From Litoreibacter roseus (lineage in GTDB: Bacteria; Pseudomonadota; Alphaproteobacteria; Rhodobacterales; Rhodobacteraceae): DNA of 64,000 bases. Positions 21,905 through 49,027 of the stretch are shown one piece after another. The DNA lies in the NCBI RefSeq assembly GCF_009811795.1, contig NZ_BLJE01000001.1, positions 558,001-622,000 on the forward strand, read 5' to 3'. Position 1 is the stretch's first letter. Each line of letters opens with the position of its first letter. A model generated the notes under the pieces. It made no database searches. It was given only the letters and a program-made list of their open reading frames with translations, and was not told the DNA's origin. A program made the position numbers and the translations under genes.

Positions 21905-21922
21905 GCGACGGAACCACCAACA

Positions 21923-22092
21923 ACCGTGGGGGAGCTTATTCCCGCAGACCTGTATGTACAGGTGGGTGCCAGGTAACCGAACCAGGGTCCGGACAGAGCC
22001 AGCTCCCGCGGAATTGCTTAAGGCCACCGGAATGTAGTCCCCATTTACGTGAAGGGCAGAACCGTCCGAACTGACTTAGGCGTCACCACGGT
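21923..22092 (+). ncRNA. Candidate structured small RNA (6S RNA considered)
   Basis: A gap of 262 bases between two genes is GC-rich and full of self-complementarity. ACCGTGG (21923-21929) can close on CCACGGT (22086-22092), about 170 nt apart. Inside, GGGGA (21929-21933) pairs with TCCCC (22038-22042), ATTCC (21938-21942) with GGAAT (22029-22033), and a small hairpin ACCTGT-ATGT-ACAGGT lies near 21949-21964. There is no convincing ORF. The length and a partly rod-like fold would suit 6S RNA, but alternative branched folds are equally possible and I cannot assign a family. Strand is taken from the neighbouring genes. Confidence 0.45.
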
Positions 22093-24845: not shown

Positions 24846-24922
24846 GCCGCCTTAGCTCAGTTGGTTAGAGCGCTTGATTGTGGATCAAGAGGTCCCTGGT
24901 TCGAGACCAGGAGGTGGTACCA
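24846..24922 (+). tRNA. tRNA-His (GTG anticodon)
   Basis: A full cloverleaf with the anticodon GTG in the loop TTGTGGA, T-arm CCTGG-TTCGAGA-CCAGG and encoded CCA (24920-24922). The acceptor is GCCGCCT against AGGTGGT, with G1-U72 and G4-U69 wobble pairs. The discriminator is A73 and the base before G1 is T, so there is no encoded G-1; this matches the unusual alphaproteobacterial tRNA-His class. The 3' end is 3 bases from the stop of the DUF6476-like gene on the other strand. Confidence 0.95.
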
Positions 24923-46720: not shown

Positions 46721-46793
46721 ACCGCAACGTTAGGCTGGTCCAGACCGATTTTGGTTGCGTCTTGATGGGCCTCACGGCAAAATTGCGCAATTG

Positions 46794-47246
46794 ATGACGA
46801 AATTTGATCAGATAAACGAGAGAATATTGCAAGCTCTGTCCGAAGATGGACGTATGAGTAACATTGATTTGGCCGAAAAGGTGGGCCTGTCGCCCTCCGC
46901 CTGTCTCAGACGCGTGCAAGATCTTGAGCGAACCGGTGTGATCCGGGGATACCGGGCCGTGCTGGACCGCGCCAAGCTGGGCGCGGGCTTCGTGGCCTAT
47001 ATCGGCGTCGGCCTGTCGGATCACTCAAAGGCCAGCCAAGAGGCCTTCGAGCGCTCGATCTCCCGCTCGTCCCATGTGCGCGAGTGCCATAACATCACCG
47101 GCACAATTGAATACCTCTTACGCGTCGAATGTATCGACATCGCTGACTACAAGCATTTCCACACCGAAATTCTGGGGGTCCTGCCTCAGGTGAACTCCAT
47201 CACCTCCTACGTCGTCATGGGATCGCCCAAAGACGAACGCGCTTAA
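46794..47246 (+). CDS. Lrp/AsnC-family transcriptional regulator
   Basis: 150 residues from the ATG at 46794. The N-terminal helix-turn-helix is LDxxNERILQALSEDGRMSNIDLAEKVGLSPSACLRRVQDLERTGVIRGYRAVLD-like (here FDQINERILQALSEDGR...), and the C-terminal RAM domain includes CHNITGTIEYLLRVECIDIADYKHFHTEIL for amino-acid binding and oligomerisation. It is divergent from the LysE exporter gene, its likely target. An upstream in-frame start would add 13 unconserved residues. Confidence 0.92.
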   Translation: MTKFDQINERILQALSEDGRMSNIDLAEKVGLSPSACLRRVQDLERTGVIRGYRAVLDRAKLGAGFVAYIGVGLSDHSKASQEAFERSISRSSHVRECHNITGTIEYLLRVECIDIADYKHFHTEILGVLPQVNSITSYVVMGSPKDERA

Positions 47247-47260
47247 AAGGGTCGACGCAT

Positions 47261-47434
47261 AAAAAAACGGCGGTACCAGGGAGGAGGCGGTACCGCCGTT
47301 CGCAGTCACGAGATACCCAGGGAGGAGGAAGGGCAGCCCGTATTCGGTTGTTTCGTGGCGACGATCCCGAGGGAGGATCGAGATCGTCGCCGGAGACATA
47401 ATGGGATCCAAGGGAGGAGGCAGATCACATTATG
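47261..47434 (-). ncRNA. CcsR/cuckoo-type small RNA cluster (four CCUCCUCCC-type loop hairpins)
   Basis: Four hairpins follow the DUF1127 stop codon, each with a CCUCC-type loop on the minus strand. (1) 47397-47434: stem CATAATG/CATTATG plus GATC/GATC, loop with CCTCCTCCC. (2) 47357-47391: 10-base stem GGCGACGATC/GATCGTCGCC, loop with CCTCCC. (3) about 47312-47344: weaker stem GATAC/GTATT, loop with CCTCCTCCC. (4) 47261-47300: perfect 12-base stem AACGGCGGTACC/GGTACCGCCGTT, loop with CCTCCTCCC, then seven T's, making it the terminator. This is the layout described for CcsR1-4 downstream of RSP_6037 (CcaF1) in Rhodobacter sphaeroides, processed from one transcript and active in stress response. 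Confidence 0.88.
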
Positions 47435-47442
47435 CTAACTGG

Positions 47443-47652
47443 TCAGCTATAGGCCGCCTCGTAGGCGATGCGGCGCAGGATCGAACGGCTCAGGCCGAGG
47501 TCATTCAACTCACGGTCTGTCAGGGCCGACAGCTCGTTGAGCGTCTGGCGATAAAGACGGTACTGCGCATAGCGCTGCTTCAATTCCGCGACGAACCCGC
47601 CAAGATGTGCGGCGGAGCCTGCGCGCGACTGGGATTGGGTTGTGAACGACAT
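47443..47652 (-). CDS. ccaF1: DUF1127 small protein (CcaF1-like)
   Basis: 69 residues from the ATG at 47652, with AAAGGAAAAA just upstream. The C-terminal half holds the DUF1127 motif: YRLYRQTLNELSALTDRELNDLGLSRSILRRIAYEAAYS. The N-terminal half is Ser/Gln-rich (MSFTTQSQSRAGSAAHLGGF). In R. sphaeroides the equivalent protein CcaF1 (71 residues) binds RNA and influences maturation of the sRNAs encoded in its own 3' region; the four hairpins 8 bases downstream here match that arrangement. Stress-sigma (RpoH-type) control is known for that relative; I could not identify the promoter with confidence. Confidence 0.88.
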   Translation of the reverse strand: MSFTTQSQSRAGSAAHLGGFVAELKQRYAQYRLYRQTLNELSALTDRELNDLGLSRSILRRIAYEAAYS

Positions 47653-47956
47653 TCTTTTTCCTTTAAACTTTGCCTGTAAGAGCTTTGGCCCGCACGGCCT
47701 GCTCTCGTTTCTTGTCTCAATATTTAGGGAATTGCTGCGCCGCCACAATAGCGCAAGTTTCAATGCTGCTATGCAGCAAATGCATGGCTTAACTATCTGT
47801 AAACATTGCGTTACCTAGCGGAAGATTGGCCAGAATTCGCGCAAAATTTAGCTGAAATCCTGTTCACGCCGCCCACAATATAGCCGTTTCATGTATCAAG
47901 CCTTGCACCTGCGCGCGGGGCGTCTCATTTAGATCACAGGTCAAGGGGGAAATGGC

Positions 47957-49027
47957 ATGTCGGTCACGCGCGAAAATGTGCTCAACGCACTGTCCACTAT
48001 CGGGCTGCCCAGCGGCGGGGACCTTGTTTCGCTCGATATGATCCGCGCTGTCTCGATTCAGAACGACTCCGTCAGCTTTGTCATCGAAGCCCCTGCAGAT
48101 GATGCCCCACGCATGGAACCTGTCCGCGCCGCCGCCGTGAGGATGGTCGAGGCCCTCGACGGCGTCAGCCAAGTGTCTGCTGTTCTGACCGCCCACCGCC
48201 CCGCAGATGCAAAACCCGCGGCGCCTTCCCTCAAAGTGGGACGGCATCCCACCCCGCAGGCGGGTCCGACAAAACCTGCAGGCGTTGACCGCATTGTTGC
48301 GATCGCGTCTGGCAAGGGCGGTGTCGGCAAGTCCACACTGTCTTCTAACCTCGCCATCGCGCTGGCGCGGCAGGGGCGGCGGGTTGGCCTGCTTGATGCC
48401 GATATTCACGGCCCCTCTCAACCGCGCATGATGGGGGTGTCTGGAAAGCCCGCATCCCCGGACGGCAAAACGATCCTGCCCCTGCACGGCCACGGCGTCA
48501 CTGTTATGTCCATTGGTCTGATGATGGACCCCGACAAGGCGGTCGTCTGGCGGGGTCCTATGTTAATGGGTGCCTTACAGCAGATGCTGGGGCAGGTGGC
48601 ATGGGGCGATCTGGACATTCTTTTGGTTGATCTGCCACCGGGCACCGGGGATGTGCAGCTCACACTTTGTCAGAAAACCCAGATGACCGGCGCCATTGTC
48701 GTATCGACCCCTCAGGATGTGGCACTTCTGGATGCGCGCAAGGCACTTGATATGTTCGACACCCTAAATACCCCGGTTCTGGGGCTGGTGGAGAATATGT
48801 CTATGTATGTCTGCCCTGATTGCGGGCGAGAGGCACATATCTTTGGCCACGGCGGTGTGCGGGATGAGGCCAAGCGCCTGAACCTGCCGTTTTTGGGGGA
48901 GATCCCGCTTGATCTGGATATCCGACTGGCGGGCGATGCAGGCACGCCCGTTGCTTTGACCGACGGTCCGGTTGCAGATGCCTACAAAGCTCTGGCCAAA
49001 CGTTTGATCGACGACGGCTTGGCTTAA
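47957..49027 (+). CDS. mrp: Mrp/NBP35-type iron-sulphur carrier ATPase
   Basis: 356 residues. An N-terminal MIP18/DUF59 domain ([31 protein letters not shown]) precedes the deviant Walker A site [25 protein letters not shown] (about residue 115). The later [17 protein letters not shown] and the CxxC pair in [15 protein letters not shown] (about residue 280), which binds a bridging 4Fe-4S cluster in the dimer, complete the Mrp/ApbC signature. It delivers iron-sulphur clusters to apo-proteins in the cytoplasm. It is divergent from the ccaF1-CcsR locus and followed by a hairpin terminator. Confidence 0.94.

Follow-up and report, generated by a model that had tools for sequence, protein, structure and literature searches.

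A DUF1127 gene followed by a hairpin array

On the minus strand of the window (the whole stretch of 64,000 nucleotides of Litoreibacter roseus DNA that was analyzed), a small DUF1127 gene lies between a conserved upstream block and four tandem hairpins. The features are given below from the promoter side downward.

47770 to 47786, minus strand: second dyad, CATGCA-N5-TGCATA, overlapping site 1 and kept in PhaR-less genomes too
47764 to 47778, minus strand: PhaR-type operator, site 1, TGCTGCATAGCAGCA, which contains CTGCNNNGCAG at 47766-47776 (alignment and motif match)
47733 to 47747, minus strand: degenerate PhaR-type operator, site 2, TGTGGCGGCGCAGCA, with 2 mismatches (alignment)
47720 to 47729, minus strand: conserved CCCTAAATAT, presumed -10 region (from the alignment)
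47650 to 47664, minus strand: ribosome-binding region and start codon, AAAGGAAAAAGAATG (read from the sequence and the upstream alignment)
47443 to 47652, minus strand: DUF1127 (CcaF1-like) gene of 69 residues, stop included (Pfam PF06568, 50.6 bits, E = 1.6e-13)
47396 to 47435, minus strand: hairpin H1, loop GCCUCCUCCCUU, 13 pairs with one internal mismatch (folding)
47357 to 47391, minus strand: core of hairpin H2, 14 pairs and a short 7-nt loop, the strongest stem (folding)
47307 to 47342, minus strand: hairpin H3, loop UUCCUCCUCCCU, 11 pairs with a mismatch, a weak stem (folding)
47265 to 47301, minus strand: hairpin H4, loop CCUCCUCCC, 14 pairs, the terminator stem (folding; covariation in 21 genomes)
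47261 to 47267, minus strand: T7 tract of an intrinsic terminator (read from the sequence)

The first-pass annotation had described a DUF1127 mini-gene and then four CCUCC-loop hairpins, the second with a shortened loop, the third with a poor stem, and the fourth with a 12-bp stem followed by seven T's. This picture was borne out by the Pfam match and by folding, in which all four hairpins place the motif in the loop. The H2 loop is indeed UCCUCCC, and the 12 Watson-Crick pairs of H4 are extended by a G-U pair at either end, part of the T7 tract pairing within the stem. Shuffled flanks reached the observed energy in none of 500 cases for H2 and H4 and in 3 of 500 for H1, while the poor stem of H3 was equaled in 54 of 500. 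The 3' untranslated region (188 nt) folds with a z score of -8.06, and none of 200 shuffles was equally stable. A generic terminator scan did not list the H4 terminator, probably because it was limited to loops of 3 to 8.

Three of the hairpins (H1, H3, and H4) carry CCTCCTCCC. This motif has 23 sites genome-wide, as does its reversed control, and is therefore not enriched by itself; what counts is the clustering of three copies in 142 nt, each within a loop, which is the nonrandom feature.

A convergent gene for an Lrp/AsnC-type regulator (46755-47246, plus strand) ends 14 bases short of the T run at 47261, and H4 may terminate both the array and this gene. Upstream of the DUF1127 gene, and divergent from it, lies a gene for an Mrp/ApbC-type ATPase (47957-49027, plus strand). 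Relatives of the DUF1127 protein are present in 21 of 21 genus genomes, the L. roseus genome included, and the latter holds three more DUF1127 genes over the Pfam cutoff (L018, L019, and L020).

Relationship to the CcsR and ar14 RNAs

We are nearly certain that the locus belongs, as an ordinary representative, to the CIN1, or “cuckoo,” type (CcaF1-CcsR-like) of DUF1127-hairpin loci. It shares three features with that group: tandem hairpins with CCUCC loops, directly preceded on their strand by a short DUF1127 gene, and a Rho-independent 3' terminator. The group is further characterized by an RpoHI/RpoHII promoter, a cotranscript processed by RNase E, and dependence on Hfq/CcaF1. The closest known system is CcaF1-CcsR1-4 (the RSP_6037 locus) of Rhodobacter sphaeroides, in which a small DUF1127 gene is likewise followed by same-strand CCUCC-loop hairpins and a Rho-independent terminator. 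Passages of the literature on that organism describe how ccaF1 is cotranscribed with the CcsR RNAs and how RNase E processes the transcript (PMC10253847, PMC8625941), and a figure legend in PMC10253847 gives the promoter as RpoHI/RpoHII dependent. A terminator is described as closing the transcript; the general association of DUF1127 genes with CcsR-like RNAs is termed “CIN1” (for both, PMC10253847, PMC8625941, PMC7866481, and PMC8307010). The window locus differs in having only four hairpins, or about two CcsR units, with the H2 loop shortened, and in scoring below the Rfam cutoff (41.7 versus 65.3 bits).

The Rfam model RF02791 (CcsR1) covers 83 positions and two hairpins, with a gathering score of 65.3 bits. 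At the gathering threshold, the Rfam search gave no match at the locus, and the match surfaced only in an E-value search, where RF02791 aligns to H3 plus H4 (47262-47345) with 41.7 bits (E = 9.1e-9, under the gathering score); at H1 plus H2 (47353-47435), it gives a nonsignificant 17.2 bits (E = 0.16). Filing the locus under RF02791 itself was rejected on this score. Because the model spans two hairpins, the four hairpins look like about two CcsR-sized units. Thus, the match to CcaF1-CcsR proposed in the first-pass annotation holds for the type of locus, as seen from its wide occurrence and the covariation of the last stem, but not for the equation of the four hairpins with CcsR1-4. Across the family, the CcsR1 model matches 242 of 295 genomes at an E value of ≤0.001 and reaches its gathering score in 10 of 295.

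A search with a covariance model of the CcsR family, which had been suggested as a check, thus fails at the Rfam cutoff and succeeds with a model built from the genus. This model, R1, was made from 17 of 20 genus relatives, with three close duplicates omitted and the window excluded, and it finds the window locus at 47261-47343 (minus strand) with 58.3 bits (E = 5.6e-12) and H1 plus H2 with 19.2 bits (E = 0.006). The automatic consensus structure of R1 pairs H4 alone, so its score is largely sequence based, and we claim covariation for the terminal hairpin only.

For H4, the covariation expected in relatives was found. The alignment comprises 15 distinct sequences from 21 genomes, with the window copy among them; 98.3% of its cells are paired, and both partners have changed in 9 of 12 pairs, values that none of 500 shuffles reached; slid-register controls gave at most 68.2% paired cells and 4 pairs. 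One of the five covariation measures, the number of further pair types, was not above shuffles (12 versus 13.8). The number of CCTCC runs after the DUF1127 gene is four in 13 of the 21 genus genomes, five in 5, six in 2, and eight in 1, and folding of these arrays yields 3 to 9 hairpins per genome. The units are not strictly paired, since 5 of the 21 genus members have five runs. Two family loci (L098 and L101) have very long arrays, in which up to 16 motif matches were called hairpins, although overlapping motifs may count twice; similar units recur there at regular spacing, which suggests tandem amplification.

Could the hairpins be merely a stabilizer of the 3' untranslated region plus a terminator, with no trans-acting small RNAs (sRNAs) produced? 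All of them do sit in the 3' untranslated region, and H4 is a good terminator. However, all 21 genus genomes keep CCTCC runs, in numbers from 4 to 8, substitutions in the last stem occur in pairs, and processed sRNAs are documented in passages on the R. sphaeroides relative. We therefore regard this explanation as very improbable and retain the CIN1 assignment.

In rhizobia, the sRNA ar14/NfeR1 (Rfam RF02344) has the identical CCUCCUCCC loop motif and also adjoins a DUF1127 gene in Sinorhizobium. It differs in being encoded upstream of that gene and in having three hairpins, according to a passage in PMC10746234, and rhizobial DUF1127 loci are mostly without a downstream array. The RF02344 model scores 45.3 bits at the window (E = 4.6e-7), below its gathering score of 58.8.

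A conserved operator that is absent where PhaR is absent

The arrangement of gene plus hairpins is already known; what is new here is the promoter with its PhaR-type operator. Alignment of the upstream regions of the 21 genus loci revealed a strongly conserved block, which in the window consists of TTAAGCCATGCA, TGCTGCATAGCAGCA (47764-47778), 16 bases, TGTGGCGGCGCAGCA (47733-47747), and CCCTAAATAT. Site 2 lies 31 bp from site 1 and overlaps a -35-like TTG; this TTG and CCCTAAATAT are conserved in the genus, and many other loci of the family have CCCATNTT. Outside the genus, most family loci also contain the block, typically with ATTGTGCA-N2-TGCAGCA as the second element and often with CCCATNTT behind it. 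In 56 nongenus rows, some of them rhizobial, the best match to site 1 has 0, 1, 2, 3, and 4 mismatches in 7, 27, 15, 6, and 1 cases, respectively, and the half-sites of site 2 are usually four bases apart outside the genus, not three. A sigma-70 scan found no promoter.

The sequence CTGCNNNGCAG is given as the published PhaR site of R. sphaeroides in a passage of PMC12542648, which also describes S. meliloti phaP promoters with two PhaR-site copies flanking the -35 element. A match alone proves nothing, as the window holds two (47766-47776 and one other) against about 1.7 expected by chance. The perfect 15-mer occurs three times in the L. roseus genome: in this promoter, within a DUF1194 gene, and in the interval from phaC to phaP-phaR (the phasin call, at 24.8 bits, is just below Pfam's 24.9). 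In the 21 genus genomes, perfect TGCTGCNNNGCAGCA occurs 48 times versus 3 for the reversed control. Of these TGCTGCN3GCAGCA sites, 14 are at the DUF1127 promoter, 11 (in 9 genomes) are between phaC and phaP, and 23 are elsewhere, the last comprising L129 and 22 others, 19 of which lie inside some ORF of at least 80 codons. Between phaC and phaP, 7 of the 9 genomes have paired CTGCN3GCAG copies 27 to 29 bp apart.

The family includes 395 near-complete genomes, 9 of them without a PhaR domain. Five of these nine, from three genera, keep a DUF1127 gene and then CCTCC runs, counted by sequence (only two runs in G369). The other four gave no row: G110 has no DUF1127 match, G300 has a DUF1127 match with no CCTCC after it and no site (best match, 5 mismatches), and the weak DUF1127 matches of G156 and G327 (E = 9e-5 and 4e-6, respectively) were missed by the residue pattern used. 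L113, L116, L121, L122, and L127, for which no DUF1127 gene plus array was found, were dropped before the PhaR count, and two incomplete genomes without a PhaR match (G011 and G186), both of which retain the site, were counted apart.

We scored the best 15-mer match within 390 upstream bases, the L. roseus genome being among 44 that carry PhaR. In these 44 genomes, the best match has no mismatch in 20, one in 19, two in 4, and four in 1, whereas in the five PhaR-less genomes it has 4, 4, 4, 4, and 5, the level of shuffled sequences. With up to 2 mismatches allowed, the site is thus present in 43 of 44 PhaR-carrying genomes (the exception, G278, carries PhaR without site 1) versus 0 of 5 PhaR-less ones, and in 16 of 920 shuffled upstream regions. 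The Fisher P value for this co-occurrence is 3.1e-6, which ignores kinship and overstates independence, as the PhaR-less set is five genomes of three genera. By plain count, the site 2 element is found in 46 of 46 loci (the 44 PhaR-carrying genomes plus the two incomplete ones) versus 0 of 5 PhaR-less genomes.

The second dyad behaves differently. Its general form, YATGCR-N5-YGCATR, occurs in 43 of the 46 loci, in all 5 PhaR-less genomes, and in 0 of 2,300 mononucleotide shuffles. Because the PhaR-less genomes lack sites 1 and 2 yet keep this dyad, two constraints overlap at site 1 in these sequences, one of which tracks PhaR while the other does not. The comparison thus brings to light a second conserved operator beside the PhaR-type site. 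The overlap may also account for a difference in spacers: purine-N-pyrimidine spacers predominate at phaC-phaP (16 of 17 CTGCN3GCAG copies), whereas site 1 has ATA or ATG in all 21 genus loci.

The retention of the dyad bears on two other readings of the block. (i) The PhaR/operator coincidence might reflect general divergence of the PhaR-less lineages rather than loss of the operator's binding protein, as could happen in a set of five genomes from three genera. We consider this doubtful, since the neighboring dyad is kept in all five while the PhaR half-sites are gone; TTGTG also stands, by eye, at the -35-like position in four of the five. (ii) The locus might be a plain CIN1/CcsR locus without PhaR, its upstream block being a stress-sigma (RpoHI/RpoHII) promoter plus another regulator's site. 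The RpoHI/RpoHII promoter reported for ccaF1-CcsR in PMC10253847, the PhaR-independent dyad, and the fixed ATR spacer of site 1 all agree with this reading and give it some weight, but we judge it unlikely on balance: PhaR-less genomes retain the dyad but have neither the outer letters of the half-sites nor the site 2 GCAGCA, the identical 15-mer recurs at phaC-phaP, and a Sinorhizobium DUF1127 gene is PhaR regulated (see below).

Two DUF1127 paralogs without an array (L096 and L097) have two CTGCN3GCAG-like sites upstream, about 19 bp apart.

A putative link between stored PHB and the small RNAs

That the operator appears and disappears with PhaR suggests that stored PHB controls these small RNAs. 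The locus as a whole is probably best explained as a CIN1/cuckoo-type stress-RNA operon in which the PHB sensor PhaR also acts on the promoter. From comparison of genomes, we further lean toward the broader proposal that across Rhodobacteraceae, and in some rhizobia via a related DUF1127 gene, this PHB-granule sensor controls the locus of DUF1127 and anti-Shine-Dalgarno RNA, so that carbon storage, beyond heat and oxidative stress, would set the RNA dose through an operator overlapping a second conserved dyad. PhaR bound near the -35 region, at the two CTGCNNNGCAG-type sites, would repress transcription while no PHB is stored, and PHB granules would titrate PhaR and release the repression. A second regulator or promoter function would use the overlapping CATGCA-N5-TGCATA dyad. 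If real, the operator gives these RNAs a metabolic input and would help explain how one locus mixes stress defense with carbon metabolism. The available descriptions of CcaF1-CcsR1-4 in R. sphaeroides do not include PhaR control, and a search of the open-access literature, with most subscription papers outside it, found no link between PhaR and DUF1127/CcsR; as whole words, PhaR and DUF1127 occur together in one paper, PMC9230146, in passages that have no connection with each other.

Independent evidence comes from the S. meliloti PhaR study (PMC12542648), which lists SMc02051, a strongly regulated, PhaR-repressed small hypothetical protein left as “unknown.” Its fold change entries are 1.51 and 4.63 (phbC phaR versus phbC), its predicted PhaR sites lie 122 and 76 bp before the ATG, and a table lists its promoter as NE with respect to PhaR binding; the term DUF1127 is absent from the main text. 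In S. meliloti Ak57 (CP090106.1), both listed 21-mers precede, at the same distances of 122 and 76 bp, an annotated DUF1127 gene that adjoins two ar14 sRNAs and tig. In two older papers, SMc02051 adjoins the sRNA candidate C14/smrC14, and one account gives tig as its other neighbor. Because the 21-mer distances and the ar14/C14 and tig neighbors agree, SMc02051 is almost certainly this DUF1127 gene beside the CCUCCUCCC sRNAs, which provides a handle on the protein. Not all rhizobia have the PhaR site: of 12 rhizobial loci, 6 differ from the SMc02051 21-mer by 1 or 2 mismatches, 1 by 5, and 5 by 7 or 8.

Another S. meliloti sRNA, MmgR, is presumably an RNA unrelated to the window array. It is PhaR(AniA) repressed, its promoter holds a PhaR site, and it is linked to PHB (PMC12542648), but the descriptions of it at hand mention no DUF1127 gene or CCUCC array.

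As to how the RNAs would act, one transcript would carry the small DUF1127 RNA-binding protein and the hairpins of the 3' untranslated region, whose CCUCC loops would mimic the anti-Shine-Dalgarno sequence. Nucleolytic processing would free sRNAs, about two of CcsR size here, and these would base-pair with G-rich ribosome-binding sites and so silence the mRNAs. By analogy with NfeR1, whose CCUCCUCCC loops are described in a passage of PMC10746234 as silencing ntrB at the translation start, the window loops should mask such sites. The target prediction proposed in the first-pass annotation was run as a search for GGAGGAGG-N3-9-ATG in the L. roseus genome, which gave 13 sites versus 3 for the reversed control. 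Only 4 of the 13 open a frame of at least 250 codons (L165, L169, L173, and L174). This surplus shows Shine-Dalgarno-like enrichment and singles out no targets, and hence we claim none.

Two further RNA genes were found in the window: a 6S RNA at 21907-22065 (minus strand; 47.3 bits versus a cutoff of 46.4) and a tRNA at 24846-24919 (plus strand).
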